Part shown: positions 7,644 through 23,386 of the stretch, piece by piece
How the letters are laid out: each line of letters starts with the position of its first letter
How positions within the stretch are numbered: position 1 is the stretch's first letter
Origin: Paenibacillus sp. cl123
GTDB lineage: Bacteria > Bacillota > Bacilli > Paenibacillales > NBRC-103111
Direction of reading: 5' to 3'
NCBI RefSeq assembly: GCF_900101595.1
Contig: NZ_FMYY01000007.1
Coordinates: 178,298-242,297, forward strand
DNA length: 64,000 nt
The notes under the pieces: generated by a model
What the model was told of the DNA's origin: nothing
Seen by the model: the letters and a program-made list of their open reading frames with translations, nothing else
The model's database searches: none
Program-made: the position numbers and the translations under genes

Positions 7644-7762
7644 GCGCTGCCGGCAACGGCCGGGGCGCTGCCGGCGACGGCCCAGGCGCTGCCGGCGATG
7701 GCCCAGGCGCTGCCGGCGACGGCCGGGGCGCTGCCGGCGACGGCCGGGGCGCTGCCGGCGGC
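7644..7762. repeat. 21-bp tandem repeat, six units
   Basis: Units beginning GCGCTGCCGGC recur at 7644, 7665, 7686, 7707, 7728 and 7749, differing at a few positions. The length is a multiple of three, so both strands stay open (LPATAGA on plus). I see no ribosome site or domain and read it as non-coding DNA between fabH and the next minus-strand genes. The rest of 7596-7896 holds nothing else I can name. Confidence 0.8.
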
Positions 7763-8229: not shown

Positions 8230-8573
8230 TTGGTGTCGTCGCCTCCGAAGGAAAAGAAATCCCCGACATCGCCGCCCCCATCATCCGAGCTTTCTCCGCT
8301 CTCCTGCTCGCCCAGCAACACGGACATATGTTTGGCCAGCGCCCTCTCCAGCTTTGTCATTCCATCGATGACTTCCAGCAGCTGATCATGAATGTCGATC
8401 GATCCTTTCAGCTGATCGCTGTGGCTCTCGAAGTGCTCGCCGCTCACATGCCCGCAGATCCATTGACAGGAGCGCTCCGCTTCGATGGCCTTCGCCTCCA
8501 GGATCAACGCGATATTATGCTGGAACCTCGCTGCCGCCGTCAGCATGCGGTTATACGCATCGGCTCTGCTCAC
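8226..8573 (-). CDS. Small helical protein with acidic Gly-rich tail
   Basis: 115 residues. Mostly helical (NRMLTAAARFQHNIALILEA; HDQLLEVIDGMTKLERALAK) with two cysteines in CQWICGH, ending in a disordered acidic tail (SGESSDDGGGDVGDFFSFGG). The pairing of ILEAK in the first helix and a LxxLExALAxxL helix near the end is shared with the gene at 8626, so the two look like distant paralogues. The GTG start has GAGGGAG five bases upstream. Function unknown. Confidence 0.65.
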   Translation of the reverse strand: MSRADAYNRMLTAAARFQHNIALILEAKAIEAERSCQWICGHVSGEHFESHSDQLKGSIDIHDQLLEVIDGMTKLERALAKHMSVLLGEQESGESSDDGGGDVGDFFSFGGDDTK

Positions 8574-8625
8574 TACTCTCCCTCATTCCTGTTCGTTATT
8601 GTTTCCGCGCCCGATCAAGCCTTGC

Positions 8626-8916
8626 CTACTCCTCGCCCGCAGGAGCCTGCACTTCTTTCAGCACAAAGGTCAGATTATCGGCCAGCGCTTCCTCCAGATC
8701 GGCCAGAGAGCTCAAATAACCGGCGATGTTTTTCGTAACGTTCATCGCATTCTCGGTCAAAGCCTCCACGCCGTCGAAGCCGGGATATTGCGGCGGAATA
8801 TCATGGACCAGCTGAGCCATCCGGACGGCAACCTGGCGTTTGGCTTCCAGGATACGAACCATCTCCTCCTGCGAGGTTGCCATATGATGCATCATGGTTG
8901 TGATTTGCTTATGCAT
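8626..8916 (-). CDS. Small helical protein, paralogue of neighbour
   Basis: 96 residues from an ATG preceded by a perfect AAGGAGGT; longer in-frame upstream codons lack a site. Two long helices: ITTMMHHMATSQEEMVRILE, then NIAGYLSSLADLEEALADNL ending in FVLKEVQAPAGEE. The positions of RILEAKRQVA and DLEEALADN mirror LILEAKAIEA and LERALAKHM in the next gene, so duplication is likely. First of the three-gene set after the GT2 run. Unknown function; probably a coiled-coil structural protein. Confidence 0.7.
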   Translation of the reverse strand: MHKQITTMMHHMATSQEEMVRILEAKRQVAVRMAQLVHDIPPQYPGFDGVEALTENAMNVTKNIAGYLSSLADLEEALADNLTFVLKEVQAPAGEE

Positions 8917-9044
8917 GTCGCTTACCTCCTTGCTCCGGAAGTCCGTGCCCGCGCTTAGCCGCTCAGGCAGCCGGCTCTTCATTCCCTTACTTAGCAGTGT
9001 ATGCGCGCCGGCACCTCACGACCTGGGCGGATGCCCAGGGAACG

Positions 9045-9779
9045 CTATATAAAATCGAAAGGATCGACCTGCCATTTGGCCATAAACTTTGCCCGGTTCA
9101 CCCGGATCAGCTCCTGTACCTGTTCCGGCTTCTGCCGCTTGAAGCTTACGCTGCCATGATGGTAGACGAAGGAATCACCCGCTATCATCAGCCTGTAACC
9201 GGCCTGGCGGGCGCGGAAGCAATAATCGTCGTCCTCGAAGTGGCCCGGCGTAAATCGTTCGTCTAGCATGCCTATCCGCTCCATCAGCTCCCGTTTGAAG
9301 AGAAAACAAAGACCTACAATTCTCTCCGCCTGCCGCCACTTGGCAGGATTATGCCTATTGATGCGCGCCGCCGTCCTGGCAATGGTCGTGAACGGCTGCT
9401 TCATCTGCTGCCGGCCGCTTGCAAAGTTGGTCATCGGACCAACGATTCCGATATCCGGGCTGCTGTGCAGGCAGCGCCGGAGCGCCTCCATCGCCCCGCG
9501 GGTCATCTGCGTATCGTTATTGAGCAGCAGCAGCTCATCGCCGGAAGCCAGCCAGAGACCCCGATTGCAGGCGGCCGGAAACCCCCGGTTGTCCGGCAGG
9601 GCGATCAGCTTGACATTATGACGGAGACAAACCTTCACCGAGTCATCAGTGGAGCCGTTGTCGACGACGATAATCTCATAAGGACTGCTGACATAGCGGC
9701 CTATGGACCTCAGGCAAGGCTCCAGCACATGAGCCCCGTTATAGTTCGGGATGATGATGCTCAGCCGTCTCTCGCTCAT
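9045..9779 (-). CDS. Family 2 glycosyltransferase
   Basis: 244 residues, compact GT-A fold enzyme. It has the GT2 N-terminus LSIIIPNYNG, the nucleotide site VVDNGSTDDS, the NRGFPAACNRG segment, a metal motif region LLLLNNDTQ, and the acceptor-side motif FEDDDYCFRARQAGYRLMIA typical of rhamnosyltransferase-like GT2 enzymes. No membrane segment. Its ATG lies 41 bases inside the end of the preceding GT2 gene and has GGAGGGG upstream. Donor and acceptor are unknown; the UDP- and dTDP-6-deoxy-sugars made nearby are natural candidates. Confidence 0.9.
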   Translation of the reverse strand: MSERRLSIIIPNYNGAHVLEPCLRSIGRYVSSPYEIIVVDNGSTDDSVKVCLRHNVKLIALPDNRGFPAACNRGLWLASGDELLLLNNDTQMTRGAMEALRRCLHSSPDIGIVGPMTNFASGRQQMKQPFTTIARTAARINRHNPAKWRQAERIVGLCFLFKRELMERIGMLDERFTPGHFEDDDYCFRARQAGYRLMIAGDSFVYHHGSVSFKRQKPEQVQELIRVNRAKFMAKWQVDPFDFI

Positions 9780-11265
9780 GTTCAGCCGCCCCTCCCCCCG
9801 TTATGCGGGCTCGCTGAGTGTCGGGAAAGCACAGTCTTGCCCCAGCCTTTTCTCCGGCCAGCTTCAGCGCTTCCAGGTGGTCGCCGATGATAAGCCGGGC
9901 GACCCGGTTCAGCGCCCCTTGATTGCCCTTCCGCCGTTTGTTGCGCCGGATAACGTCTACACTGGCGGGGGCTCCGACGGACAACCCCTGCAGCAGAGCG
10001 GCGGCCTGCGCCTTGGGCGGCACCATCAGCAGCTCGGGTCCAAGCGCCTCCAGGGCTGCGCGGGACATTGCATGGGGAACGGCCGTCAAGGAATTCGCCT
10101 TCAGGTCGGGGCGGCCAAGACTAAGGTTGAGAAACTGCTTGACTTGAGTCACCTGATCCCGGCGGCTAAACGATCCGAGATACGGACTGATATCGTTGAG
10201 GGCGATATCCATTCCCCGCGAGACGGCATGCACAAAAGCAACGAGACGCTCGGCCCGGATCGGAATGTCTCCGTCCAGAAACAGCACGATATCGGCTGTG
10301 GCCAGGCGCGCTCCGACGGCTCGCCCTACGTCATGTCCAAGCGGATGCGGGTAATGGACAATTTTCGCTTCGGCATGCTGGCTCGCCCGTTCGTAGGTGC
10401 GATCGGTGGAGCCGTTGACCACCACGATCACTTCATCCGCGCCGAGTCTCACAGCCTCTCTGATGGTCCGGCCGATTGTAGCCTCCTCATTCATCGCCGT
10501 GATAACGACGGCTATCGACTGCTCGACAGGCGACAGCACCCAATCGGGAACAGCCTCCTTCCTGCCTACGAAAAAGCCGTGCAAGTACCCTTCGCTCATC
10601 GAGCGATACCTGCTCCAGTTACGCCTGCTCCCCTCCCAGTGGCGGAGGCGTTCCGCCCAGCGGCGGTTAAGAGCCCGGTGAAGCCGGCCCTCGGCGCATA
10701 GGGCGCCGGCCAGCGCATCCTCCCGCCCCAGAATATACCCGTAACGGAAGGCCTGCGTCTTCCGCTCATAAGAAAAAGCGCCTGTTCCTCCGGCAACCTT
10801 ACGACGGCGGTCCCTACCTTTTCCCCTGCCCGCGCCTCGGCGGCCGGCCTCTCTCCCGCCGGAAGAGATAGCGTTCGCCCGCACAGTTCCCCGCTGCCGC
10901 CGGCCTGCCGCGCCAGTCGCCGCCGGGCGCAGCGCCGCCACTCGAACGGCCTTGCCGCGTGCCGGCTTGCGAGCCCCGACCTGCCGGCCGGAGAGAGCGG
11001 CAGCGTCTCCGTCCGCGCGCGGGCTCCCGGCCCCCCGGGCCGAAGCGCGAGAGCTCTCCATAGCTCCGGCTATCTTGACCTCCGCCGCAGCCCGGCTCTC
11101 CGGGGAACAAATGCTGTGGTCGATACCCATACCGGCATGTTCAGCAGCCGCAGCCCGAGCCCGAGCCCGAGCGGCCCTGGCTGCGGCAGGCGGGCGCCGG
11201 CCTGCACCCAGAGCGCATCTTTTGTCCGAAAACGATACAGATTGCAGATCAACCGTGGAGTTCAT
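9739..11265 (-). CDS. GT2 glycosyltransferase with Arg-rich N-terminal extension
   Basis: 508 residues. The first 160 or so are an Ala/Arg/Gly-rich low-complexity region. Residues near 165-235 carry two Gly/aromatic motifs (RYGYILGREDA and EGYLHGFFVGRKEAV) like those before the CgeB domains in this locus. The GT2 domain follows: VVITAMNEEATIGRTIREA, VVNGSTDRT, GHDVGRAVGAR, FLDGDIPI, then VPHAMSRAALEALG and a C-terminal IIGDHLEALKLAGEKAG. It is a paralogue of the next gene upstream (same GHDVGR, DGD, VPHAxSR and GDHLEAL blocks) but with the extension. GAGGTG lies 11 bases before the ATG. Confidence 0.85.
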   Translation of the reverse strand: MNSTVDLQSVSFSDKRCALGAGRRPPAAARAARARARAAAAEHAGMGIDHSICSPESRAAAEVKIAGAMESSRASARGAGSPRADGDAAALSGRQVGARKPARGKAVRVAALRPAATGAAGRRQRGTVRANAISSGGREAGRRGAGRGKGRDRRRKVAGGTGAFSYERKTQAFRYGYILGREDALAGALCAEGRLHRALNRRWAERLRHWEGSRRNWSRYRSMSEGYLHGFFVGRKEAVPDWVLSPVEQSIAVVITAMNEEATIGRTIREAVRLGADEVIVVVNGSTDRTYERASQHAEAKIVHYPHPLGHDVGRAVGARLATADIVLFLDGDIPIRAERLVAFVHAVSRGMDIALNDISPYLGSFSRRDQVTQVKQFLNLSLGRPDLKANSLTAVPHAMSRAALEALGPELLMVPPKAQAAALLQGLSVGAPASVDVIRRNKRRKGNQGALNRVARLIIGDHLEALKLAGEKAGARLCFPDTQRARITGGGAAEHERETAEHHHPEL

Positions 11266-11275
11266 AAGCCAAGGA

Positions 11276-12079
11276 TCACCTCACCGTTTCTCGAATCCGT
11301 GTCTCATCCTTATACCGCCCCCGGCTTCCTTCCTGTTCCAAATACCAGCCCAGCGCCTCCAAATGATCGCCGACGATCAGTTGGCCGACCTGGTCGACGC
11401 CCAGCTTGTTGATTCGCCGTCCCCGTCTCCGGTTGATTCGTCCGATGTTCACCAGATGGACCGGGCTTACCTTCAGTCCGCGATGAATCGCTATCGTCTG
11501 CGCCAGCGGAGGCACGCTTAGCGACGCGGCCCCGATCGCCTCCAGCGCTTTCCGGCTGATCGCATGGGGCACAGTCGTCATAGAGACGCCCCGGAGCTCC
11601 GGCCGGCCGAGGGCGGCATTCAGCACATGCTTGGCAAGCACGACCGGATGCGTCCGTTTACCCCGCACCGGACCCAGGTAACGGTTCAGCGCCACGTCCG
11701 TCCCTCTTTCGACCGCGCGAATATAGGGTCTAAGCTCTTTCGCCGGAATAGGCGTATCGCCATCGACAAACAACAGAACATCTCCGGTCGCATGGAGGGC
11801 GCCTATGCTTCGGCCGACATCATGCCCAAGCGCAGCCTCGCAAGAGATCACCTTGGCGCCCAATGCTTCGGCAATTCGCCCTGAGCCGTCCGTAGACCCG
11901 TTCACGACCACTATGATTTCAATCCGGGAGGGAGACAGCCTGCGAACCTGCCGGATAACGGAAGAGAGCGTTCGGCGTTCGTTCCTGACGGGAATGATGA
12001 CGGATACCCGGCCTGCGCGCAAGGGCGCAGCCTTTTTCCGGCGCCTCGTTCCCTTCGTCTGCATGCGTAAGCGTCCCAT
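11276..12079 (-). CDS. Family 2 glycosyltransferase
   Basis: 267 residues. A short basic start (KGTRRRKKAAPLRAGR) precedes the GT2 domain: VSVIIPVRNERRTLSSVIRQ, VVNGSTDGSG, GHDVGRSIGAL, LLFVDGDTPI, VPHAISRKALEAIG, IGRINRRRGRRINKLG, LIVGDHLEALGWYLEQEG. It matches the catalytic part of the downstream gene block for block, so the pair arose by duplication. Its stop overlaps the ribosome site of that gene. A CATACGATA box (12153-12145, minus strand) about 65 bases upstream resembles a sigma-K -10, but no AC lies 17 bases before it. The 154 bases upstream hold nothing else clear. Confidence 0.9.
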   Translation of the reverse strand: MGRLRMQTKGTRRRKKAAPLRAGRVSVIIPVRNERRTLSSVIRQVRRLSPSRIEIIVVVNGSTDGSGRIAEALGAKVISCEAALGHDVGRSIGALHATGDVLLFVDGDTPIPAKELRPYIRAVERGTDVALNRYLGPVRGKRTHPVVLAKHVLNAALGRPELRGVSMTTVPHAISRKALEAIGAASLSVPPLAQTIAIHRGLKVSPVHLVNIGRINRRRGRRINKLGVDQVGQLIVGDHLEALGWYLEQEGSRGRYKDETRIRETVR

Positions 12080-12233
12080 TCATCCATCCCCTTTCATCGA
12101 ATCATGACTTACTCTCGTCTCATCGCAATTGTCGTCGGTTAATCTATCGTATGCCGGTCCGCGCAGGGGGACAGGGCAGCTGCGGAAGCCGGGCGGAAGG
12201 AAAAGCCGGACGGAGCCCGCAGCAGCGTGACGG

Positions 12234-12950
12234 CTATCCGCCGTGCCTGCGCGCAAAGTCATCCAGCAGATGGCGGTATCTGCCTCTGACCATGGCGATT
12301 TCCTGCTCGATGACCGGGCGATGCCTTTCCGTCCCCATAGCCGGATGCCAGCGGTATTGAATAAGCGGGCCGGGATAGAAATGAAAATGAATACCGTTCA
12401 GCATCAGCCTGATCCACATATCGTAATCCTGCGTATAGGGGAGCTGCTCGTCAAACAGACCGAAGCCTACGAGCACGTCCTTGCGGGCGATCACGGTGCA
12501 GCCGTTGATCGGATTGGCATCGATCATGGAGCGCACCAGCGCGCCGTAGTTCGGGAAGGTCGGCACGACATGCTGTTGCGTAATCCGGTTATAGGCATCG
12601 ATCAGATCGAACGAGGAGAAGCTGACCGCACCTCCCCGCTCCAGCATGAAAGGCAGCTGCGCCATCAGTTTATGAGGATAGAACATATCATCCGAGCTCA
12701 GCCAGGCTATATACTCGCCGGATGCCATCCGGATGCCGTGATTCAGCGCGCTTGCGGTGCCCCCGTTGGCTTTGCCCAGATAACAGATCCGGTCCATAAA
12801 GGGGGCGAGGATGTTCGCATGCCGGGTCGAGCCGTCGTCGACGACGATAATCTCTACATTCGGGTAAGTTTGGGCAACAGCGCTGCTGACAGCCTGCCCG
12901 ATATACGGATCGTTATAAAACGGGATGACAATGGAAACCTTCGGATACAC
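12234..12950 (-). CDS. Family 2 glycosyltransferase
   Basis: 238 residues, GT2/GT-A fold: KVSIVIPFYNDPYIGQAVSS, VVDDGSTRH, the donor site GKANGGTASALNHGI, WLSSDDMF as the metal motif, then YTQDYDMWIRLMLNG. This acceptor-side pattern is common in polysaccharide and spore-coat GT2 enzymes of the SpsA type. The GTG at 12950 is chosen because GGAGG lies 7 bases before it; a TTG six codons earlier precedes that site. The gene begins close to the stop of the SDR gene upstream, so they are co-transcribed. Confidence 0.9.
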   Translation of the reverse strand: MYPKVSIVIPFYNDPYIGQAVSSAVAQTYPNVEIIVVDDGSTRHANILAPFMDRICYLGKANGGTASALNHGIRMASGEYIAWLSSDDMFYPHKLMAQLPFMLERGGAVSFSSFDLIDAYNRITQQHVVPTFPNYGALVRSMIDANPINGCTVIARKDVLVGFGLFDEQLPYTQDYDMWIRLMLNGIHFHFYPGPLIQYRWHPAMGTERHRPVIEQEIAMVRGRYRHLLDDFARRHGG

Positions 12951-12964
12951 AGCCACTCCTCCTT

Positions 12965-13975
12965 TCAACTATCCAAGGCTGCGGCTGTCCGGTGATAGCC
13001 CAAAATATCTGCGACAGACTGCCCGAAGGCGATGACCGGCTCCCAGCCGAGCGCGCGCATCGGCGCCATATTGACGGCCGACGCGCCCGCAGCCTTCAAG
13101 GCGTCCGCCGTCTCGCCGGACAGCTCCGTCAGCCGTATCGGCTGGCTTGCGCTGCCTTCCTCCATCCCGATGCGCCATGATACGGGCGTTTGCGCCGCCT
13201 GCTCGAACTGCCGGGCGATCTCGCCCAGCGTCCGAAGCCGTCCTGATCCGATCGGATAAGAGACCCCCGGCTCCCCTTGCTCCAGAATCAGGCCGTAAGC
13301 CCGCACAGCGTCGCGCACGTCCACGAAATCCCTCGCTTCCGCAAGCGAAGAGAGGCGAAACGGAGCGCCTTCCCCCGCGCGCTCCCATCCGGCGATATGC
13401 GCGCCAATCAAGCCGCAGATGCCGTTGGATGCGCCAGGGCCGATCAGATTGGAGGGCAGCGCAAGGCTGACGTGCAGACCGAACAGCTGTCCCCAGGCGG
13501 CGGCCGTCAATGCCTGCAGGGTTTTGCTGAGCGAATAGGGATGCGGCGGCTTCGGTGTCTCATCGTCCCGGAGACGGCAGCCCAGCATGGAGCCGACGAT
13601 CAGGGTACGGCAGCCTGTCAGCCCCAGCTGCCGCAACCCGTCGAGCAGGTAAAGCGTCGACATCACATTAAGCTGCATGTACGTGATCGGCTGCTGCCAG
13701 GAAGGTCCAACGGCATTCAGACCGGCCAGATGCAGCAGGCCATCCGGCTTTTCCTGCTCCAGCAGCTCCAGGACGGCTGACCGATCGGACAGATCCAGCG
13801 CCCGCTCCCGGATAACGCCATGCCCGGCAGCGGCAGCCTCGGCGGCGATACGTGCCGCCGATCCCGGCCTGCGCAGGACAGCGGTCACGTCATAGCCGAG
13901 GGCCGCCAGATGAGCGCAGGCATGCAGGCCGGTAAAGCCCGAGGCCCCGGTCACGACCACCCTGCCCCGGCTCAT
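12965..13975 (-). CDS. NAD-dependent NDP-sugar epimerase/dehydratase (SDR)
   Basis: 336 residues, extended SDR. The dinucleotide site is TGASGFTGLHACAHL, the middle motif LLHLAGLNAVG, and the active site YSLSK (YxxxK). The length and the segment NVMSTLYLLDGLRQLG resemble GDP-mannose 4,6-dehydratase or NDP-sugar 4-epimerases, without enough detail to choose. The C-terminal half has ARDFVDVRDAVRAYGLIL and YPIGSGRLRTLGEIA, usual in these enzymes. Its start overlaps the stop of the reductase gene. It may act on the sugar made by the three preceding enzymes or on a separate activated sugar. Confidence 0.82.
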   Translation of the reverse strand: MSRGRVVVTGASGFTGLHACAHLAALGYDVTAVLRRPGSAARIAAEAAAAGHGVIRERALDLSDRSAVLELLEQEKPDGLLHLAGLNAVGPSWQQPITYMQLNVMSTLYLLDGLRQLGLTGCRTLIVGSMLGCRLRDDETPKPPHPYSLSKTLQALTAAAWGQLFGLHVSLALPSNLIGPGASNGICGLIGAHIAGWERAGEGAPFRLSSLAEARDFVDVRDAVRAYGLILEQGEPGVSYPIGSGRLRTLGEIARQFEQAAQTPVSWRIGMEEGSASQPIRLTELSGETADALKAAGASAVNMAPMRALGWEPVIAFGQSVADILGYHRTAAALDS

Positions 13976-14838
13976 GGGTGCATCCGCATCCAGGAGCTCA
14001 GCTCGGCGAGCATCGTCTCGTAATCCGGCACAGCGTAGCCCAGATCCGCACGCGTGCTCTGCAGCGTCCGGTCGAGCACGATGGCGTCGTCCGCGCGGAT
14101 CGTCACATCCGATCGGCCGAACGTCCGCTGGAACAGCTTCAGCAGCTCATACTTGCTGACCGTCTCCGGAGCGGTCAGATGCACCAGCCCGCTTAAGCCG
14201 CTTCCGCGCTCCAGCGCGTAGCGGATAAATTTCGCCAGCTCCAGCGTTGTTACCCCATTCCACGGCACATGGACGAAGCCCTTGATCTCTCCCGACTGCT
14301 GAAGGAACCAGTGCAGCAGCCCGATCCCTCCTTGTCGAAGCTCCGGGCCGATAATCGACGTTCGGATTGTCAGATGAGGCGCGCTGTTCACTTCTCCCAG
14401 CGCCTTGGTGCGGGCATATACGGAATGTCCGTCCGGTACGTGACGCTCCTCATACCGGCCCCGGTCCCCGTTGAACACACAGTCCGTGCTGATATGAATA
14501 AGCCTCGCGCCGACGGACTCCGCCTGCCTGGCCAGCTTGTGAGGCAGCAGGCCGTTCACTTCGTAAGCCAGCACCTGCTGCAGCCGGGCCGCATCATTCA
14601 GAATACCGACGCAGTTCACAATAACATCCGGCCTGATCAGCTCAATGGCATGCGACACTCGCTCCCAGTCCGCCACATCCACATACAGACGCGCTCCGGG
14701 GAGCGCAGTCCGGTGCAAGCCTTCTTTCTCGGCCTCTGTCCGAATGGTGTAGAACAGCTCATGCTCACCGGCTTCATCCAGATAACGGAGAAGCAGATGC
14801 CCGGCCATCCCATTGCCTCCGAGAATAAGAAGCTTCAT
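13972..14838 (-). CDS. RmlD/FnlB-like NDP-sugar 4-reductase
   Basis: 288 residues, RmlD superfamily: LLILGGNGMAGHLLLRYL, VNCVGILNDAA, the catalytic HISTDCVFNGDRG and YARTKALGE, and RTSIIGPELR. It is the middle enzyme of an FnlA-FnlB-FnlC order. CapF/FnlB of the UDP-L-FucNAc pathway carries an extra C-terminal cupin (about 370 residues in total); this protein stops at the RmlD size. That fits WbvR-type reductases of the UDP-L-RhaNAc/L-QuiNAc route better. The ATG overlaps the previous stop (TGATG). Confidence 0.82.
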   Translation of the reverse strand: MKLLILGGNGMAGHLLLRYLDEAGEHELFYTIRTEAEKEGLHRTALPGARLYVDVADWERVSHAIELIRPDVIVNCVGILNDAARLQQVLAYEVNGLLPHKLARQAESVGARLIHISTDCVFNGDRGRYEERHVPDGHSVYARTKALGEVNSAPHLTIRTSIIGPELRQGGIGLLHWFLQQSGEIKGFVHVPWNGVTTLELAKFIRYALERGSGLSGLVHLTAPETVSKYELLKLFQRTFGRSDVTIRADDAIVLDRTLQSTRADLGYAVPDYETMLAELSSWMRMHP

Positions 14839-15821
14839 CACAGAAAACCGCCTTTGCGCAGCATCGTATAAATTTCTTCTTTATCCATCAGCGAAAATTC
14901 GGACGAGTATTCGTCATCCCCAACCTTGCGGCAGCCTGCATACGACTCCTTGAGTCCGGGAATTTCCAGCGGAGGCAGCACGACGACATAATCGCGGTCG
15001 AAGACCACGGAGTTCTGCGCTTCATACTCCGAGTACAAAATCTCGTGCAGCTTCTCGCCAGGGCGAATGCCCAGCTCCACAAACTTCAGGTCAGAGACCC
15101 CCATATGCTCCGCCAGCACCTCGGCCAGATCGATAATTTTGCAGGTCGGCATTTTCATGATGAAAATTTCTCCGCCCTTGCCCTCGGCCGTCGCCTTGAG
15201 CAGCAGCGAGATGGCTTCCTCGACGGTCAGGAAGAAGCGCGTCATGTCTTTATGCGTAATCCCGACCTCGCCTTTCTCTGCAATCTGCTTCTTGAACAAA
15301 TGAACGACGCTGCCATTCGTCCCGAGCACATTGCCGCCCCGCACGCATACGAATGTCGTCTCCGAGCGAAGCAGGTTCGCATAAATGATCAGCTTCTCTC
15401 CGATCGCCTTGGTCATGCCGTAGAAATTCGAAGGATTGGCTGCTTTATCGGTCGAAATGTTGATGACCTTCTTTACTTTATTTTCAATAGACGCTTCAAT
15501 GATGTTTTGTGTGCCCACGACATTGGTTTTGAGCGCTTCGTAGGGCTGATCCTCGCAGACGGGAACATGCTTGAGGGCCGCCAGGTGGAAGACGTAATCC
15601 ACCCCCCGGGTCGCCGCCACCAGCGCCTCCTTGTCGCGAACGTCGCCGATGCGGAAATGAAGCCGGGGATCGTCGAAATGCCGCTTCATCGCCACCTGAG
15701 TGGACTCGCTTCTCGAAAAGACGATAATCGCCTTGGGATCATAGACGAGCAGCTGGGAGACCAGCTCCTGCCCCCAGGACCCGGTGCCGCCGGTTACTAA
15801 TATCGTGCTGTCTTTAAACAT
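14838..15821 (-). CDS. UDP-GlcNAc 4,6-dehydratase (FnlA/CapE/FlaA1 family)
   Basis: 327 residues. Soluble polysaccharide-biosynthesis SDR: VTGGTGSWGQELVSQLL, FHLAALKHVPVCEDQP, ISTDKAANPSNFYGMTKAIG. Members convert UDP-GlcNAc to the 4-keto-6-deoxy sugar, with C5 inversion in FlaA1/CapE types. A regular YxxxK (Tyr of NFYGMTK) is present, where I recall CapE/WbjB enzymes having Met. Its first codons overlap the stop of the WecB-like gene by 8 bases. With the neighbours it should give a UDP-N-acetyl-6-deoxy-L-hexosamine; the exact stereochemistry cannot be told from sequence. Confidence 0.87.
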   Translation of the reverse strand: MFKDSTILVTGGTGSWGQELVSQLLVYDPKAIIVFSRSESTQVAMKRHFDDPRLHFRIGDVRDKEALVAATRGVDYVFHLAALKHVPVCEDQPYEALKTNVVGTQNIIEASIENKVKKVINISTDKAANPSNFYGMTKAIGEKLIIYANLLRSETTFVCVRGGNVLGTNGSVVHLFKKQIAEKGEVGITHKDMTRFFLTVEEAISLLLKATAEGKGGEIFIMKMPTCKIIDLAEVLAEHMGVSDLKFVELGIRPGEKLHEILYSEYEAQNSVVFDRDYVVVLPPLEIPGLKESYAGCRKVGDDEYSSEFSLMDKEEIYTMLRKGGFL

Positions 15822-16905
15822 TTTGCTTTCCTCCCAATACGTATTTGACCACCTTGGTCGAAACGTCCCGGTCGGTATACCCCTCCGGGAACTCCCAATC
15901 CGTGGGCAGCTTGACCATGAGCTTTACGGCGTCTGCAATTTGCCCGGCATTCAAGCCGGCTACCACGTTGCTCCCGCAATCCACGGTTTCCGGCCGTTCG
16001 GTCGTATGGCGCATTGTAACGGTCGGCACGCGCATCAGGCAGCATTCCTCCTGCACCGTCCCGCTGTCGGTCATTACACAGAGCGCTTCACGCTCCAGGC
16101 GAACAAAATCGAAGAAGCCAAACGGCTCATGGAATTCTACAAGCGGATGCGGGTGTACATGGCCGAGAGCGGCGATGCGGGAGCGGGTGCGGGGATGAAT
16201 GCTGCAGATGATACGCCGGTTGTCGCGTGCGGCGATGTCGTTTAGCGCTTGAAGGATCTGCTCCAGATGTTCGGGAACGTCCACATTTTCCGCGCGGTGT
16301 GCCGTGACCAAGTAGTAGTCCCGGGGAATCAACTGGAGCTTGTCGAGAATTCGGCTGGAATCGATGCTGGACGCGTAAGCCTGAAGCACCTCGTAGATCG
16401 GGTTGCCTGTCAGGACGATGTGATCCGCCGGGCAGCCCTCTCTGCTCAAATTCCGCTTGCTCCCCGGGGTATAGGGCATATTGATCGTGGATACCGCGTC
16501 GATGATTTTGCGGTTTTTTTCCTCCGGCACCCGCAGGTCGTAGCAGCGGTTGCCGGCTTCCATATGCATGACGGGAATTCCCATCCGCTCCGCCACAATG
16601 GCGCATAGCGCGCTGTTCGTATCGCCCAGCAGCAGCACCTTGTCAGGGCGCTCCCGCTCCAGAATGTCCGCCACCTGGCCAAACATGGCCGACAGCTGCG
16701 CGCCGAGCGCCGAGCTGCGATGATCCAGCACATAGTCGGGCTGACGCAGATTCATCTCCTCGAAGAACACGTCGCTCAGGCTGCGCGTAAAGTTCTGACC
16801 CGTATGCACCAGCACGTGGCGTTCGGCCAGATCGTCCAGCTTCCGAATGATCAGGCTAAGACGAATGATCTCAGGCCTTGTGCCCAGTATTGTAACGATC
16901 TTCAT
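15814..16905 (-). CDS. UDP-HexNAc 2-epimerase (WecB/FnlC family)
   Basis: 363 residues. Non-hydrolysing 2-epimerase fold: MKIVTILGTRPEIIRLSLII, VHTGQNF, LLGDTNSALCA, HMEAGNR, YYLVTAHRAENV, the Glu-containing TDSGTVQEECCLMRVP and TMRHTTERPETVDCGSN. In the FnlABC and WbvBRD pathways this enzyme inverts C2 in the last step. The ATG at 16905 follows AAAGGTG by 6 bases; an ATG two codons earlier overlaps that site. It is followed directly by the 4,6-dehydratase and then the reductase, so the order is C-A-B on the transcript. Confidence 0.9.
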   Translation of the reverse strand: MKIVTILGTRPEIIRLSLIIRKLDDLAERHVLVHTGQNFTRSLSDVFFEEMNLRQPDYVLDHRSSALGAQLSAMFGQVADILERERPDKVLLLGDTNSALCAIVAERMGIPVMHMEAGNRCYDLRVPEEKNRKIIDAVSTINMPYTPGSKRNLSREGCPADHIVLTGNPIYEVLQAYASSIDSSRILDKLQLIPRDYYLVTAHRAENVDVPEHLEQILQALNDIAARDNRRIICSIHPRTRSRIAALGHVHPHPLVEFHEPFGFFDFVRLEREALCVMTDSGTVQEECCLMRVPTVTMRHTTERPETVDCGSNVVAGLNAGQIADAVKLMVKLPTDWEFPEGYTDRDVSTKVVKYVLGGKQNV

Positions 16906-16937
16906 GCTCATCACCTTTCGTAAAAATAGGCTCCGGT

Positions 16938-18818
16938 TCACCCCGAACGGCGTCTATGCCGTCGTCTTGCTCTCCGAGTCACTCGGGCGGAGGCCGCAGG
17001 CCGCCGATGCCCCCGGGTGTGATGACGCCGTGTTCCCCGAAGCCGCTTTCTGCCCGCGGAATGACGTTTCCTCCGCCGGAGCAGCCGCTTTCCGCCCGGC
17101 TTGCGCCTGGCCTTGAGCGGAAGCTTTCTCAGCGGCCTTCGCCTTAATTTGAGCTTGCGCCGTCTCCCGGACTTGCGGAGCTTGCGGGAGAGCGCCCGCG
17201 TCCGCGTTCGCGAGCTTCTCAGCGCTTCTCCCAGCGGGAGTAAGTCCAGTTCGCTGTCCGGCAGCTCCACGACACGCTCCGGCGTATAACCCCTCTGACG
17301 CAGTGCCGCCTGGGAAGCAAACGGGAATCTCCGGCCGTGGGCAATGAGATAGACTCTCGGCCCCGAGCCCTTGGCCAGCAGTATCGCCGGCCGATTGCCG
17401 GCCGAAGGAGGCGTATGCCGGATCTCGGGGCCGGTAGGCAGCGCATAGAGCCACGCATCGGGCACGACCCGCACCTCCTCCCAGCGGTACCGGTAGAACC
17501 GCATCGTTTCTTCCGTCGCGAAAGGCCGCTTCATCCCTGACTCCAGAAGAAAAACAGCTGCGCTGCGCTCGCCCTTGTACAGCCAGCCCGGGTCCAAATC
17601 CCTGCCGGGGCTGGCCGCTCGGCCGACGCTTCTCTGCTTGCTCTCGTCATAGAACCGCTCCGCCAGAGGTCTCAGCCGCCGACGATACGCTTCGATGCCA
17701 TAAGCGGCCTCAAGCGAGGCTCGGCCCGCCTGTCTGCGCCCCTCCGCTCCGGCTGCGTCCGAGTCGAGCAGCTCCAGGACCCGGTCGGCCAGCCCGGCGG
17801 CATCGCCCTTATCCGCCAGCCAAGCGCCGTGACCGACGGCCAGCATGATCTCTTCAAGCCCGCCTGCCCGGTAGGCGACGACATCTGCGCCGAACAACAG
17901 CCCCTCGGCAGCCGTCAAGCCGAAGCCCTCGTCAATCAGACTCGGCACCACGAGCATATCCAGAGCGGGAAACAGCCGTTCGATACGGGGCTCGAAGCTT
18001 CGCCATTGAAACCTTGCTCCGCAGCCGGTCGCCCGGATTTGATTCGAACAACGGGTAAAATACGCTTCATCCGTCACATTGCCGACGATCAGAAACCGGG
18101 TATGAGGCCGTCTCAACGCCACCTCAGCCGCCATCGTCACGAAGTGCTCAAGTCCCTTCTCCTCATGCAGACTGGAGGAAATATACCCGATCAGCCGCTC
18201 TCCGGCGCGGATACCCAGCTCCAGCCGTCTGAGTTCGCGATGATAAGGCCATTCCTCCGGACGAAGCTCCTCCAGCCGCCAGGTCGGCGGAAGCAGATGA
18301 GCCTTGGCCCCCGCGGCCTGAGAGTGCATTCGGATCGGACGAAGCGTCGTTTCCGAGATGCCGACGATCCAGTCGGCATAGCTGTTCATCAGGCTAACGG
18401 TCTGCGAGGTCCAGGCGTTTTCCGTTATTTTCTCCGTCACAAACCAGGCCACCGGCACTCCCGCCACGCGAGCCGCAGCGGCAGGGAATACATTCAGGCA
18501 AGTATTCACCACCACCAGATCGGGCTGATGCATGTGAAGCAGGTTCACGAGCCTCTCATGCTCCCCGCGGTCCAGCCTGGCCTCCACCTCCTGCCGAAGA
18601 TCGGGGCCCGGATTAAACATCTGCCAGACGAGGGGCACCTCATGAATGACCGTACGGATACCGGCCGCCTCCGCCTCCTGCGCAAGCAGCCCGGATTCCG
18701 GAGCGACCAGCGTGCATTCGGCGTACTGCCCCAGTTCCCGGGCAAGCAACAGCAAATATTTTTCAGCGCCAGTGATCATCTGATTTCCACTCACATGTGA
18801 AAAAAGCATGATTTTCAT
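16938..18818 (-). CDS. GT4 glycosyltransferase with C-terminal repeat domain and basic tail
   Basis: 626 residues. The GT4/GT-B domain spans about residues 1-390 (MKIMLFSHVSGNQMITGAEK; LIGYISSSLHEEKGLEHFV; donor-site SLIDEGFGLTAAEGLLFGAD). Residues of about 400-530 hold three units with the pattern LYKG..VFLLESGMKRPFATEETM, LAKGSGPRVYLIAHGRRFPF and GYTPERVVELPDSELDLLPLG. This K-G-..-VYLI-G-RRPF repeat occurs in various cell-surface proteins. The last 100 residues are almost all Arg/Lys/Gly/Ala. The ATG at 18818 overlaps the stop of a 14-codon leader frame with a good ribosome site, so translation is probably coupled. The alternative frame across the tail is Ala/Gln-rich, so a frameshift cannot be wholly excluded. 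Confidence 0.82.
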   Translation of the reverse strand: MKIMLFSHVSGNQMITGAEKYLLLLARELGQYAECTLVAPESGLLAQEAEAAGIRTVIHEVPLVWQMFNPGPDLRQEVEARLDRGEHERLVNLLHMHQPDLVVVNTCLNVFPAAAARVAGVPVAWFVTEKITENAWTSQTVSLMNSYADWIVGISETTLRPIRMHSQAAGAKAHLLPPTWRLEELRPEEWPYHRELRRLELGIRAGERLIGYISSSLHEEKGLEHFVTMAAEVALRRPHTRFLIVGNVTDEAYFTRCSNQIRATGCGARFQWRSFEPRIERLFPALDMLVVPSLIDEGFGLTAAEGLLFGADVVAYRAGGLEEIMLAVGHGAWLADKGDAAGLADRVLELLDSDAAGAEGRRQAGRASLEAAYGIEAYRRRLRPLAERFYDESKQRSVGRAASPGRDLDPGWLYKGERSAAVFLLESGMKRPFATEETMRFYRYRWEEVRVVPDAWLYALPTGPEIRHTPPSAGNRPAILLAKGSGPRVYLIAHGRRFPFASQAALRQRGYTPERVVELPDSELDLLPLGEALRSSRTRTRALSRKLRKSGRRRKLKLRRRPLRKLPLKARRKPGGKRLLRRRKRHSAGRKRLRGTRRHHTRGHRRPAASARVTRRARRRHRRRSG

Positions 18819-18859
18819 AGGAATCGCCCGATGCCCCATCCGCTTGACGCGGTCGACAC
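18815..18859 (-). CDS. Leader peptide ORF coupled to the GT4 gene
   Basis: GTG start with GGAGGT seven bases upstream, 14 codons (MSTASSGWGIGRFL), and a TGA that overlaps the ATG of the GT4 gene as ATGA. The GT4 start has no ribosome site of its own, so ribosomes ending here probably re-initiate. The peptide has no recognisable function. Confidence 0.4.
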   Translation of the reverse strand: MSTASSGWGIGRFL

Positions 18860-18914
18860 GACGCTCACCTCCGCTTTCAAGTACTAAGCCCCTGCTCCGC
18901 TATGAACCTTGTGC

Positions 18915-18942
18915 ATATGCGCAGTTCCTAGGTCCATACAAT
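18915..18942 (+). promoter_or_regulatory. Sigma-E-like promoter reading into the minisatellite
   Basis: ATA (18915-18917), 17 bases, then CATACAAT (18935-18942) fits the known mother-cell consensus ATA-N16-18-CATACANT. It points right, away from the GT4 operon, into gene-free DNA with the 52-bp repeats. No matching -10 for the minus-strand operon is evident here. Confidence 0.45.
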
Positions 18943-19205
18943 ATATTAGCGGGACAACTGTAGCGGCACGTCATTTAGCCCCCGTCCATTCGTACAATTT
19001 GGCCGGGGGTATGGAAAAAATAGGGTAAAAGGGGGAGGGATAAGACGGAGGAAAGAGGCTGCAAGCAGACAGAATGAGATCATGGATGCATGGTGATCTC
19101 CTATAAGAAAATGCGCTTCTATGTTTCCATGCTCGGCGTGTGAGCGAAGCCATGGATGCGCACCATCTGCTGAGCAAGACAGGTTGCCTTAGCAAACGAC
19201 ACGGC

Positions 19206-19856
19206 GCGCGGTTAAAGGATGGGATGTGGGCGGAAAAATGCACAAAATGCACTCGGCAGGCGGGCAGGAGATGGGTTGTGGGTGGAAAAATGTACAAAAT
19301 GCACTCGGCAGGCGGGCAGGAGATGGGTTGTGGGTGGAAAAACGTACAAAATGCACTCGGCGGACGGACAGAAGTTGGGATGTGGGCGGAAAAACGTACA
19401 AAATGCACTCGGCGGGCGGGCAGAAGTTGGGATGTGGGCGGAAAAACGTACAAAAGGCACTCGGCAGGCGGGCAGGAGATGGGATGTGGGCGAAAAAACG
19501 TACAAAATGCACTCGGCGGGCGGGCAGGAGATGGAATGGGCGGAAAAACGTACAAAATGCACTCGGCGGGCGGGCAGGAGATGGGGTGTGGGCGGAAAAC
19601 CGCACAAAAGGCACTCGGCGCGAGGTTAAAAGATGGGAGGTGAGCGAAAAACCGTACAAAATGCACTCGGACGGCGGGCAAAGGACGGGAGGTGGGCGAA
19701 AAACCGTACAAAATACACTCGGCGGGCGGGCAGAAGATGGGAGGTGGGCGGAAAACCGCACAAAATGCACTCGGACGGCGGGCAAAGGATGGGAAGGTGG
19801 GCGAAAAACCGCACAAAATGCACTCGGCGCGCGGTTAAAAGATGGGATGTGAGCGG
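19206..19856. repeat. 52-bp minisatellite, 12 units
   Basis: The anchor ACTCGG recurs at 19251, 19303, 19355, 19407, 19459, 19511, 19561, 19613, 19665, 19717, 19769 and 19822: period 52, once 50 and once 53. Each unit contains CGTACAAAATGCACTCGG, then a G-rich stretch (GGCGGGCAGGAGATGGGATG). The period is not a multiple of three and the unit has few stops, so several frames on both strands stay open by chance; none has a convincing start. Units differ by point changes (AGAAGTTGG/AGGAGATGG; ATGC/AGGC). The two ends and one unit inside read GGTTAAAxGATGGGA. Flanking 18960-19200 and 19860-20080 hold no gene I can support. Confidence 0.9.
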
Positions 19857-20080
19857 AATGTCTGTTAAACACTATGAGAGATTGTGAAGCATTAATATAT
19901 GCAGCGAATATCGTGAGAGGTATGCGGGCGGAAGCAGCAGCTGGGTGGCTGCGCGGGCTGTAACGGCATTGGCTGACCCTTAAAGCCACTTCTCCCAGAT
20001 ATTTCCATTCTTACGAAATTCGGCGGCGCAGGAATGGGCGATTGAGCGACGAACAGTCGGACGAGATGATGGCGTGGAAC

Positions 20081-20104
20081 TGTAAACGGAATTCAGCGAC
20101 CCTA
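20081..20104. repeat. Dispersed intergenic repeat, copy 2
   Basis: TGTAAACGGAATTCAGCGAC followed by CCTA matches 5903-5926 at 22 of 24 positions. It lies in the gene-free stretch 18860-20654. Confidence 0.6.
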
Positions 20105-20494
20105 GACAGGCAGAATGAACGAAAATGGGACCGTTTCGTCTTATAAGGAACTCCTAGCTGTCTCCGTTGCCCTCAGGACAGCTTGTCCCACACCGCTTCA
20201 TCCCAAGAAGATGTCCTTGGCCTATGCGCACTCCTCCTTGCGTCCGCCATGGCAGCCCGGTTGACGGGATCGGTCTGACGAAGCTGGAAATCGAGCTTCC
20301 GGGTGCCGCCGGCAAACTAGAATCGAAGCGGCCGCCCGGCTAAAATACAAAAAGCGACATAAGCGCTCTGCCATCCAGCCGTCGCTTAGCCTGATTACAG
20401 CGCAGAAGCGGCTGGTCGTCATACCAGACCGAGGAGGCTTTCCCCGGCAGGCACTCTCGGCTAGCGCGGGGGGCGGGCCGGGCAGACTTCGCTC

Positions 20495-20625
20495 AGCTCA
20501 CGCGCCAGCCCGCTCTCCGCTCGCAGCGCCGAGCTGCGGCCGCAGTCTACGCTTTCGGCTCACGCGCCAGACCGCCTTCCCTGCACGCAGCCCGCTCTCC
20601 GCTCACACGCCGAGCTGGGGCTGCG
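20495..20625. repeat. Imperfect GC-rich direct repeat
   Basis: Two degenerate copies of CAGCCCGCTCTCCGCTC followed by CGCCGAGCTG (near 20505-20536 and 20588-20618), with further GCTCACGCGCCAG copies at 20495 and 20557. Gene-free DNA just downstream of the Arg-rich small gene. Confidence 0.5.
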
Positions 20626-20654
20626 GACATCGCTCTCGGACACCGTGCGCCGGG

Positions 20655-20978
20655 CTAACCCGGCGGCGGCTGTCCGTCCTTGATGCCCTGCTCCATCCCT
20701 ACGCTGAACGCTTCGTTATAGGCCTGATTGAACGCTTCGTTGTAGGCTTGCGCATACGACCGGCCTCTAACGCGGCTTCCGCCGACGCGGACGGCCGGAT
20801 GCCGCCGGCGCCGCCTTAGGGCTCTCGCCCCGGCACGTCTGGGCGCGCCCTTCCGCGGCCCTGCCGCCCTTCCTCCTGCTCTCCTGCCCGCAGCGGCGGG
20901 CCTGCGTTTGATTTTTGCGGCGCGCGAGCCGGCCGCTGGGCGTTTGGACCGTACGCTGCGTGTTTTTCTTTTTTTCAT
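20655..20978 (-). CDS. Small Arg-rich protein with Tyr/Asn/Ala tail
   Basis: 107 residues. The first 75 are extremely basic (KKRKTRSVRSKRPAAGSRAA; RRRRRHPAVRVGGSRVRGR). The C-terminus repeats YAQAYNEAFNQAYNEAF and ends SVGMEQGIKDGQPPPG, a Gly/aromatic heptad-like pattern related to the motif before the CgeB domains. The ATG at 20978 follows a perfect AAGGAGGT. A CATATCTTA box at 21020-21012 upstream resembles a sigma-K -10, but the -35 is absent. It follows the two CgeB genes on the same strand. I infer a small spore-surface or DNA/polyanion-binding protein; no family recognised. Confidence 0.7.
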   Translation of the reverse strand: MKKRKTRSVRSKRPAAGSRAAKIKRRPAAAGRRAGGRAAGPRKGAPRRAGARALRRRRRHPAVRVGGSRVRGRSYAQAYNEAFNQAYNEAFSVGMEQGIKDGQPPPG

Positions 20979-21058
20979 CCCCGACACCTCCTTCAAGCAT
21001 ACGCATCTCTATAAGATATGCAGGAAGTCCGCCCGGCGCCCGGGGATAGCCGCCTAAT

Positions 21059-22183
21059 TTATCCGAGAAGCAGCCGCATCATCTGGGCCATACGATGGGA
21101 ATACGTGTGCTCCGACATCGTGCGGCGCAGCGCACCGAGCGCGATCGCCCGGCGGGCCTCTTCATGGGCCAGGTAAAAGTCGATCTTTTCCTTAAGCTCC
21201 TCTGTCGAAGAGTAAGTGACGATCTCCTGATCGGGCGTATAGAAACGGGGCAGGTCCCCGCGCATATCGGTCAGCTGAAGCGTGCCGCAGCCTGCGATTT
21301 CGAAAGTCCGCGGATTCGGAGAAACAGCGCCGATCAGTCTGCTGTTATTGTTGAAGCTTTCGTCATCGACCGAGCGGTGCAGATTGATCGAAATTTTCAT
21401 CCCGTTGTAGTAGGTGGCCGTTTCCTCCGCTTCCATCCATTTGTTCAGCTCGATTTTGTCGCTCAGCAGCCGGTAAGACTTCAGCCGGTCCCACCAGAGG
21501 CCGGATATATACGTGTGGCGTTTGGCAAGGAAAGGAGCGATCTGATCGAAGAAATGCGCCCGGTTCCAGTAGGCCGAGCCGATAAATCCGACATCGTACC
21601 GGTAGTGAAGCGGAATCGGCTTCGGACGGAATATGCTCGGATTGGCGGCGAACGGCAGGTAGTGTACCTGTGCGCTTCCGTTGCTCCGGTACAGCTCGAC
21701 GCATTCCAGCTCCAGCGTAAATACCGCATCGTAGTGCAGCGTCATCGGCAGCGTCATATCCGTGTAATAGGGATCGTCCGTCAGCCAGACGGCGGTGCGG
21801 ACGCCGAGCGAGCGGATGAGGTCGATCCGGTCGACCTCCACATTCAGGCCGTCCAATACGATCACGTAATCCGGCTTGATCTGCTCGGCCGCCGCTACGA
21901 TATCCTGTACCGGTGTGAGCACGATAAGCTCTCTGACCAGCTCGCGAAGCGCTTCGATGATCGAAGCGTCCAGCGGCGAATAGGGGAAGCCCTTGCCCGA
22001 CGTAATGTACAGGATGCGAGCATCCCACCAGCCTTGCGACCGGATCGGCGACTGCCGCATCACCGCCTCGCAGCGGCCGTAATAATAGCCGTAATTCATA
22101 CCAAGCTGGTAGCCATGCTCCCTTCCTTCGCGACGGCCGAGGGCAGCCCCCGAGATCCGTTGATGCGCCGTTATCCCTGGCAT
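21059..22183 (-). CDS. CgeB-family spore glycosyltransferase-like protein
   Basis: 374 residues. A Gly/aromatic leader (EGREHGYQLGMNYGYYYGR, residues 19-37) precedes a GT-B type CgeB fold: LVLTPVQDIVAAAEQIKPDY VIVLDGLN, then VAVWLTDDPYY-like donor-side sequence (AVWLTDDPYYTD), YLPFAANPSIFRP, DVGFIGSAYWNR, INLHR, and NPRTFEIAGCGTLQLTDMR. CgeB in B. subtilis is a late mother-cell protein required for crust polysaccharide. It is a tandem paralogue of the next gene upstream, 21 bases away. GAGGAGGAACAGGA lies before the ATG. Likely adds sugars at the spore surface; donor unknown. Confidence 0.88.
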   Translation of the reverse strand: MPGITAHQRISGAALGRREGREHGYQLGMNYGYYYGRCEAVMRQSPIRSQGWWDARILYITSGKGFPYSPLDASIIEALRELVRELIVLTPVQDIVAAAEQIKPDYVIVLDGLNVEVDRIDLIRSLGVRTAVWLTDDPYYTDMTLPMTLHYDAVFTLELECVELYRSNGSAQVHYLPFAANPSIFRPKPIPLHYRYDVGFIGSAYWNRAHFFDQIAPFLAKRHTYISGLWWDRLKSYRLLSDKIELNKWMEAEETATYYNGMKISINLHRSVDDESFNNNSRLIGAVSPNPRTFEIAGCGTLQLTDMRGDLPRFYTPDQEIVTYSSTEELKEKIDFYLAHEEARRAIALGALRRTMSEHTYSHRMAQMMRLLLG

Positions 22184-22204
22184 TCCTGTTCCTCCTCTTC
22201 GTAA

Positions 22205-23386
22205 TTAGGTTTCATAGCCCAGCAGCCCGAGCAGCTGGCCGATTCGGCTGACGAAGGAATGCTCCGTCATGGTGCGGCGCAGTCCGTTAAAGGCGATCGT
22301 TCTCCGGATATCCTCATGCTTCAGATAATAATCTATCTTGGCGATGAGCTCTTCGGGACTCCCGAACACATCCAGATCGACCCCGGGCGTATAGTAGCGG
22401 GGCAAGTCTTGCCGCATGTCCGTCAGCTGCAGGGTGCCGCAAGCGGAAATTTCATATGTCCGCGGATTGACCGACATGGCCGGTATCCGCAGCGCATTGC
22501 GGTTATCCGTCTCATGGTCGGGCCCCCGGTGCAGGTTGATGACCAGCTTGGCGCCGCTGTAGTACAAGACGGATTCCTCGACGGGTATCCAGCCCGAGCG
22601 GACGAACCGCCGGACCATCCGGTAGTTGGACATGCGCTCCCACAAGCCTCCTCCGATAAAGACGCGCTTTCCCTGCAAATAAGGAGCAAGCCTGTCGAAG
22701 AAAGCTACCCGATTCCAGAAGGCCATGCCGATAAAGCAAATATCGCTGCGGTAATCGGGCGGCACCGGCATCGGACGGAAAAGCCCGGTGTCGGCAGCCA
22801 GCGGCAAATACCGGACCTGCGGGCATCCGGCTTGCTCGTAGAAGGGCACGCAGCTCTGCTCATGCGTGATCACCATATCGTAGCGCAGCGCGATGTCCGC
22901 CGTATAGTTCGTAAAGTACGGGTCGTCGGCGAACCAGATCACCGTCCGGATTCCGAGGCCGCGCACCCGGTCCACCTGCTCCAGATGGTCGGTGGGGAAT
23001 ACATGAAGACCGTTGAGCACAATCATCACATCCGGCCGGTGTTCCGCAGCCAGCTCTGCCATTCGCTCGGGCGTCCCTACTACAAGTTCCCGCACGCGGC
23101 TCTCCAGCCCTCCGGCGATCCCATGATCAAGCGCCTGGAAGCCCTGCGGGATGAATAACACTTTCAGCTCCAGGCGATTTCCCGGCTCCGGCTGTACGGT
23201 GCGGGCCCTGACTGCCTCGCAGCGGCCGTAGTGATACCCGCGCTCATAACCTGCGGCGCGCCCTTCCTTCCAGGCGGTTCGCCTGCCCTGCTTTACTACT
23301 CGCCCTACTACTCGCCTTACTACTCGCCTAGCCACTCGCTTTGCTGACCGCTTTGCTAATCGTAAGCGCCGTTTGTTAGCCTTCAC
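22205..23386 (-). CDS. CgeB-family protein with Arg-rich N-terminus
   Basis: 393 residues. Residues 1-36 are a strongly basic helix (RRLRLAKRSAKRVARRVVRR), followed by EGRAAGYERGYHYGRCEAV, the same Gly/aromatic motif as its paralogue. The CgeB domain is parallel throughout: VIVLNGLHVFPTD-like region, VIWFADDPYFTN, YLPLAADTGLFRP, DICFIGMAFWNR, INLHRGPDHETD, NPRTYEISACGTLQLTDMRQ. The two proteins end alike (LRRTM.EH..). GTG start with GAGGATGAGG upstream. Co-directional with rmlD just upstream, so it probably belongs to the rml transcript and may use its product. Confidence 0.88.
   Translation of the reverse strand: MKANKRRLRLAKRSAKRVARRVVRRVVGRVVKQGRRTAWKEGRAAGYERGYHYGRCEAVRARTVQPEPGNRLELKVLFIPQGFQALDHGIAGGLESRVRELVVGTPERMAELAAEHRPDVMIVLNGLHVFPTDHLEQVDRVRGLGIRTVIWFADDPYFTNYTADIALRYDMVITHEQSCVPFYEQAGCPQVRYLPLAADTGLFRPMPVPPDYRSDICFIGMAFWNRVAFFDRLAPYLQGKRVFIGGGLWERMSNYRMVRRFVRSGWIPVEESVLYYSGAKLVINLHRGPDHETDNRNALRIPAMSVNPRTYEISACGTLQLTDMRQDLPRYYTPGVDLDVFGSPEELIAKIDYYLKHEDIRRTIAFNGLRRTMTEHSFVSRIGQLLGLLGYET

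Follow-up and report, generated by a model that had tools for sequence, protein, structure and literature searches.

A glycine-repeat helix common to glycosyltransferases of unrelated folds and a small basic protein of Paenibacillus is a candidate assembly tag

Introduction

How the glycosyltransferases of a polysaccharide pathway are held together and restricted to the developing spore is poorly understood. This question is raised by a stretch of 64,000 nucleotides (hereafter the window) of Paenibacillus sp. cl123, contig NZ_FMYY01000007.1, positions 178,298 to 242,297 of the forward strand, in which two CgeB-type glycosyltransferases (GTs), a GT2 enzyme and a small basic protein share a short motif rich in glycines and aromatic residues. 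The original prediction on this DNA had taken the motif, together with an arginine-rich segment, as one possible spore-targeting tag. Here we ask what the tag is, which proteins carry it and what it may be good for.

Results

The tag and its carriers in the window

The tag is a helix in which Gly or Ala occupies every fourth position (GX3), often with Tyr, Phe or Trp adjoining. It was found in the two CgeB proteins (CgeB1 and CgeB2), twice in a GT2 and at the C-terminus of the small basic protein. The genes and the tags are located as follows.

22205-23386, minus strand: CgeB2, a GT-B type glycosyltransferase with the tag (Pfam PF13524 and PF12996; Foldseek matches to GT-B enzymes)
23210-23287, minus strand: GX3 tag of CgeB2, residues 34-59, GRRTAWKEGRAAGYERGYHYGRCEAV (profile matches; conservation of G46, G50 and G54; predicted helix 2-62)
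21059-22183, minus strand: CgeB1, a paralogue of CgeB2 (Pfam; 46% identity) with the tag and without a long basic arm
22061-22138, minus strand: GX3 tag of CgeB1, residues 16-41, GRREGREHGYQLGMNYGYYYGRCEAV (profile match; Pfam match to Yae1_N below threshold)
20655-20996, minus strand: small basic protein, candidate scaffold (accompanies the CgeB pair across the family genomes)
20661-20750, minus strand: C-terminal GX3/AX3 tag of the small protein, AYNEAFNQAYNEAFSVGMEQGIKDG (top tag match of the genome; predicted helix 81-108)
9739-11265, minus strand: GT2 glycosyltransferase with a basic N-terminal region and two tag copies (Pfam PF00535 at residues 253-374)
10702-10758, minus strand: first tag copy of the GT2, FRYGYILGREDALAG (sequence; Ala/Gly positions 65-85% conserved in 26 relatives)
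10549-10611, minus strand: second tag copy of the GT2, EGYLHGFFVGRKEAV (mixed-profile match, E 0.0099)

All motifs quoted in the original prediction were recovered, GYQLGMNYGYYYGR in CgeB1, GYERGYHYGR in CgeB2 and AYNEAFNQAYNEAF in the small protein, while RYGYILGRE and EGYLHGFFVGRK both reside in one and the same GT2 (9739-11265). In CgeB1, CgeB2 and the small protein the quoted motif turned out to be part of a longer run with Gly or Ala at every fourth residue (GRREGREHGYQLGMNYGYYYGR; AYNEAFNQAYNEAFSVGMEQGIKDG). The structure predicted for CgeB2 (mean pLDDT 92.5) combines a GT-B fold with a long helix at the N-terminus (residues 2-62), in which the tag lies; with Glyco_trans_1_2 (PF13524), DUF3880 (PF12996) and this fold, CgeB has the features of a CgeB-type GT-B enzyme. 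The small protein was predicted with confidence only at the helix 81-108 (block pLDDT 86-92) and, in the libraries scanned, had no family match that reached its cut-off. Its true start is probably the ATG at 20978, which is suggested by the Shine-Dalgarno sequence AAGGAGGT upstream of it. A search of solved structures with the tag gave nothing significant.

Conservation of the glycines and sharing across families

Is this pattern more than a product of composition? Within the first 130 residues, GxxxGxxxG was present in 141 of 144 CgeB relatives, while shuffled sequences averaged 8.5 and never exceeded 17. In the alignment of these relatives the tag glycines are conserved inside an otherwise variable N-terminus: G46, G50 and G54 are kept in 97-99% and G42 in 90%, the intervening residues mostly in 20-50%. 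Similarly, four glycines are invariant (100%) among 25 proteins of a longer GT2 type (GT2-long), the flanks of which are variable. The 80 named related loci may be biased, since one of the two peptide patterns used to collect them falls within the tag; however, the 24 CgeB loci of the sister family, obtained by a whole-protein query, carry the tag without exception, and a tag match was present in 24 out of 24 CgeB-positive genomes.

The same helix also occurs on GT2-long and on a GT-D enzyme in the 80 related loci, so that the tagged enzymes belong to the Pfam families PF13524/PF12996 (CgeB, GT-B type), PF00535 (GT2) and PF22882 (GT-D). A profile made from the tails of the small proteins only, run against 1,744 open reading frames (ORFs) of 81 loci, matched small proteins, CgeB, GT2-long and GT-D proteins and nothing else at E<0.5. 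No block-shuffled decoy passed E<0.01 with this profile, and a single one per set passed E<1. Upon iteration it gathered 48 CgeB and 10 GT2-long proteins without drawing in another family, and a profile-profile comparison of the small-protein tag with the CgeB tag gave an E value of 6.9e-6 (probability 84.5%). The small-protein profile picked up neither the window GT2 (9739-11265) nor its relatives; what links them to the tag is the mixed profile (E 0.0099) and the pattern. Taken from the sequences, one tag common to unrelated folds is well supported, and chance or composition as its origin is ruled out by the shuffles and the block-shuffled decoys.

Profile searches were also the basis of our statements on the own genome. 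The mixed profile ranked the small protein first (3.5e-10), followed by CgeB2 (9.3e-5), the GT2 (0.0099) and FliH (0.013). With the CgeB-tag profile, only CgeB1 (1.8e-10) and CgeB2 (3.8e-9) were found, followed by FliH at a marginal E value (0.19). A general genome-wide motif was thus ruled out, as both profiles rank the locus first and FliH and transposase-like proteins follow. The presence of GX3 runs in the latter two kinds of protein would be expected if the tags were convergent low-complexity helices that drift in GC-rich genomes without a common role. However, the excess of observed over shuffled motifs, the invariant glycines among variable residues and the confinement to the locus stand against convergence, which we regard as highly improbable.

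Distribution among genomes and the partner question

In the class and phylum samples, strong matches to the small-protein tag were confined to Paenibacillales. Weaker matches elsewhere were mostly FliH-sized frames, several of them recognisably FliH, besides other GX3-repeat proteins. Four CgeB relatives that were read outside Paenibacillales (L176, L177, L179 and L180; the CgeB protein of Bacillus subtilis was not among them) did not disclose a tag. Bare GX3 repeats are also found in the FliH proteins of many bacteria, so that the motif by itself does not stand for sporulation. The small tag protein was seen only in Paenibacillales in the samples searched.

Of the 104 family genomes, 84 contain either the CgeB pair or a CgeB relative of this kind, and 82 of these 84 gave a small-tag match at E<=0.001. 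In the remaining two (G088 and G089), whose small tag proteins were missed by the profile at the threshold used, inspection revealed one beside the pair, which makes 84 of 84. The co-occurrence of CgeB pair and small tag protein is significant (Fisher P 5e-16, counted before the cases of G088 and G089 were found). Among the 20 family genomes without the pair, a clear small tag protein was identified in one (G090). There (L223, 9926-10306) it adjoins a c13-like gene and a YheC/D-like gene. A match in G017 was discarded, because it is a 27-residue frame and probably due to chance. In one genome of the sister family (G728) the locus is split in two, and rmlA, a GT-D gene and a tagged GT2 (581 residues) sit together approximately 38 kb from the CgeB pair and the small gene. 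The retention of the tag on this distant GT2 suggests that the products of the split locus still work together.

These data also bear on the possibility that the tag only makes homo-oligomers, so that each tagged GT dimerizes or tetramerizes by itself, the small protein is a separate self-assembling factor and no mixed complex exists. The tags of different enzymes indeed vary in length and in the positions of the aromatic residues. Furthermore, the GxxxG repeats of FliH are thought to serve its own dimer (PMC2674601), and the YG box of SMN self-associates (PMC8287954). On the other hand, homo-oligomers would not explain why the CgeB pair and the small protein almost always occur together, nor why the tag of the small protein resembles those of unrelated enzymes. 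We consider this possibility unlikely.

Basic arms

Besides the tag, several proteins of the locus possess basic segments, two of which were localized in the window.

23276-23386, minus strand: basic arm of CgeB2, residues 1-37 (sequence; one continuous predicted helix with the tag)
16941-17210, minus strand: basic tail at the C-terminus of the GT4, without a GX3 run and with approximate borders (charge in relatives)

The tail of the GT4 (16938-18839) was absent from the original prediction. Among 60 relatives, 92% reach at least +14 net charge per 40 residues, at a median relative position of 0.94. Medians of the largest net charge per 40 residues were +21 for this tail, +20 for the small proteins, +17 for GT-D, +14 for long GT2b proteins, +11 for GT2-long and +7 for CgeB; SDR, RmlA and WecB proteins of the same loci gave +4 to +5. 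A value of at least +14 was reached by 10% of the CgeB relatives versus 100% of the small and GT-D proteins, and an arm like that of CgeB2 is not conserved in most CgeB relatives. In the window, basic segment and motif occur together in CgeB2, the GT2 and the small protein, but CgeB1 has almost no basic arm. Since charge and glycine lattice do not always coincide, the original prediction merged two features; by the evidence of the sequences, the basic arm is separate from the tag.

This distinction affects the proposal that the tag targets proteins to the spore or a membrane, in which basic arm and helix would form an amphipathic anchor for anionic lipids or coat polymers and the glycines would only shape the helix. 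Basic arms on the small protein, GT-D, GT2b and the GT4 tail, the sigma-K-like promoter described below and the precedent of supercharged basic proteins such as CotG at the spore surface (PMC9765600) speak for targeting. However, it is the glycine lattice that is conserved and not the charge, and a membrane anchor does not need a glycine at every fourth residue. We therefore judge targeting to be distinctly unlikely as the function of the tag.

Gene organization and putative sporulation promoters

The minus-strand genes from approximately 26.1 to 7.9 kb make up a surface-polysaccharide cluster according to the ORFs of the window and Pfam. The cluster includes an rmlA-headed operon with the gene order rmlA-rmlB-rmlD-cgeB2-cgeB1-small (the third gene being rmlD-like), the GT4 gene, a gene for a WecB-like epimerase, three SDR genes, GT2 genes including 9739-11265, which is paired with the gene 11276-12079, and genes for three small helical proteins. 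Three candidate promoter elements were noticed.

26109-26141, minus strand: sigma-K-like promoter in front of the rmlA-rmlB-rmlD-cgeB2-cgeB1-small run, TCCAC ... CATATCATA (conserved; element shared by 14 genomes)
21012-21020, minus strand: CATAnnnTA box directly upstream of the small gene (weak; box in only 6 of 43 relatives)
12145-12153, minus strand: CATAnnnTA box upstream of the GT2 pair 11276-12079/9739-11265 (box upstream of 16 of 70 GT2b-cluster genes)

CATAnnnTA is the -10 pattern of sigma-K promoters. Upstream of rmlA and GT2b genes it was present in 21 of 36 regions compared to 35 of 325 others (P 2.8e-10); boxes of the sigma-E type were not enriched in the upstream regions. The element in front of rmlA, TATTCGTCCA...CATAnnATA, is kept in 14 genomes including the window, with a variable spacer, and the spacing of the -35 region (AC-type) agrees with sigma-K only loosely. 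Some loci have a YheC/D-like ATP-grasp gene (PF14398) nearby; the YheC/D family is annotated as coat-associated. With the rmlA-headed operon preceded by such a promoter in 14 genomes, a spore role of the locus is plausible, and the cluster is probably switched on in spore formation. The support for this link is indirect and consists of the conserved promoters, the YheC/D family gene near some loci and the restriction of the small tag protein to Paenibacillales in the samples searched.

Other features of the window

Between the small gene and the GT4 gene there is a tandem array (19218-19858; 52-bp unit, 12.3 copies, 86% matches), whose open frames on both strands are probably spurious. The three adjacent small helical proteins (c13, hb and c10; 7897-8982), which gave no Pfam match above cut-off, are kept as a trio near tagged genes in many Paenibacillus loci. 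A 21-bp tandem repeat of six copies (7634-7760) is located downstream of a FabH-like gene. The DUF1796 papain-like family has two relatives next to each other at 27208-28740 (Pfam was run on the second only). A protein of 1403 residues (32931-37142) without a Pfam match contains a 30-bp repeat in 56 copies (33707-35397) and is preceded directly by a sigma-K-like box (37151-37159); its long repeat-protein relatives form a cluster of 39 in 38 loci including the window, with repeats of the type GAVxSEQLxxGSV.

Discussion

What, then, might the tag do? The original prediction offered shared localization or a scaffold as the meaning of a common tag on unrelated folds. The common tag is well supported, and of the two meanings the scaffold suits better than targeting, since the motif resembles oligomerization helices (Yae1-Lto1, FliH, SMN YG box) and travels with a small tagged protein. 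As the known soluble GX3 helices of these three systems serve assembly, the tag most likely pairs helices. We infer the following arrangement. Gly or Ala at every fourth residue would give the helix a flat face on which a second such helix packs, with the aromatic residues interleaved. Glycosyltransferases of different folds, i.e. the two GT-B CgeB proteins, the GT2s and, in relatives, GT-D, would carry this helix as an assembly tag, and the small basic protein with the same C-terminal helix would be the dedicated partner gathering them into one complex. The small protein is read as a scaffold or adaptor because it has hardly anything besides a basic arm and this helix, and because it is present with every CgeB pair of the family set. 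Its disordered Lys/Arg-rich arm, assisted by the basic arms of some enzymes, probably ties the complex to an anionic surface such as the coat or the membrane of the forespore. The complex would make a rhamnose-type surface polysaccharide late in sporulation, with its genes read from sigma-K-type promoters. We give about an even chance to the view that the tag is a soluble glycine zipper by which the enzymes assemble on the small protein as their scaffold. A more far-reaching version is a dedicated bacterial scaffold of a polysaccharide pathway, in which the small basic protein would build larger assemblies through its YG-zipper-like helix, perhaps as a forespore condensate, and draw in GTs of three unrelated folds (GT-A, GT-B and GT-D) via one portable tag; this version is rather doubtful.

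Several observations weigh against assembly by a common scaffold. The helix could dimerize each enzyme alone, and the small protein may be another client and not the hub. The tag is less regular in GT-D and GT2b, and in the own genome the tag of CgeB1 scored poorly with the mixed profile (E 3.2). The relation to known families is faint: the Yae1_N match of CgeB1 (E 4.8e-5) remained with 23.4 bits below the gathering cut-off of 27.5, and the SMN YG box was matched by only one of 22 small proteins, marginally (E 0.088). Concerning sporulation, CATAnnnTA boxes in the window are about as frequent as expected by chance, so that only position and conservation favour them. SpoIVA was present in 103 of the 104 family genomes, with and without the locus; since nearly all genomes possess it, correlating tag and sporulation inside the family is impossible and the originally proposed co-occurrence with spore genes is uninformative there. 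If assembly by the tag holds true, a short portable helix would offer an assembly principle for enzymes that is simple, open to testing and possibly reusable, and a function would be suggested for a small protein without a family match above cut-off.

Comparison with known systems

The sps and cge genes of B. subtilis resemble the locus in their CgeB-type GTs and rml-type genes for dTDP-sugars, and the sps operon is driven by sigma-K (PMC517825, which also gives the consensus logos and spacing). They differ in the tag, as the CgeB relatives read outside Paenibacillales lack GX3 (that of B. subtilis was not compared). CotG, a supercharged basic protein building the spore surface (PMC9765600), and similar coat proteins share with the small protein the basic, disordered, low-complexity character and a likely place at the spore surface, but the small protein ends in a GX3 helix and no central tandem repeats were seen in it. 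We rejected its filing as CotG-like; cotH (contig C49) and the small gene (C18) are not adjacent.

FliH (PF02108) has AxxxG(xxxG)m repeats rich in Tyr and Phe at position x1, which is typical of its GxxxG repeats (PMC2674601), and FliH of the own genome is the nearest match outside the locus. However, it acts in flagellar export, the tagged proteins of the window do not contain a FliH domain but match glycosyltransferase families or no family, and FliH of this genome is encoded by a separate gene. The YG box of SMN (PF20635) likewise interleaves aromatic residues with GxxxGxxxG in a C-terminal helix, through which it dimerizes and then multimerizes (PMC8287954); it belongs to eukaryotic ribonucleoprotein assembly, and homology is not claimed.

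The deca-GX3 proteins Yae1 and Lto1 (PF09811) have Gly at every fourth residue over several turns, and here two unlike proteins pair via GX3 and act as an adaptor. Glycine changes in the deca-GX3 of Lto1 weaken the complex (PMC4523923). Gly or Ala at every fourth residue over several turns is found in the tag as well, and weak or sub-threshold Yae1_N matches were obtained for 19 of 22 sequences of the small protein and for 5 of 30 CgeB proteins; in Pfam the small protein and CgeB2 of the window gave none. As weak matches do not establish a family, membership in Yae1_N or SMN_YG-box is not claimed. Yae1 and Lto1 are eukaryotic iron-sulfur adaptors with ten repeats, while three to six repeats are present here, on glycosyltransferases of Paenibacillales. 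No earlier report of the shared tag was found in the literature searched. Compared with these systems, the tag would represent a new use of a known structural device, a portable helix on glycosyltransferases of three folds together with a dedicated small partner.

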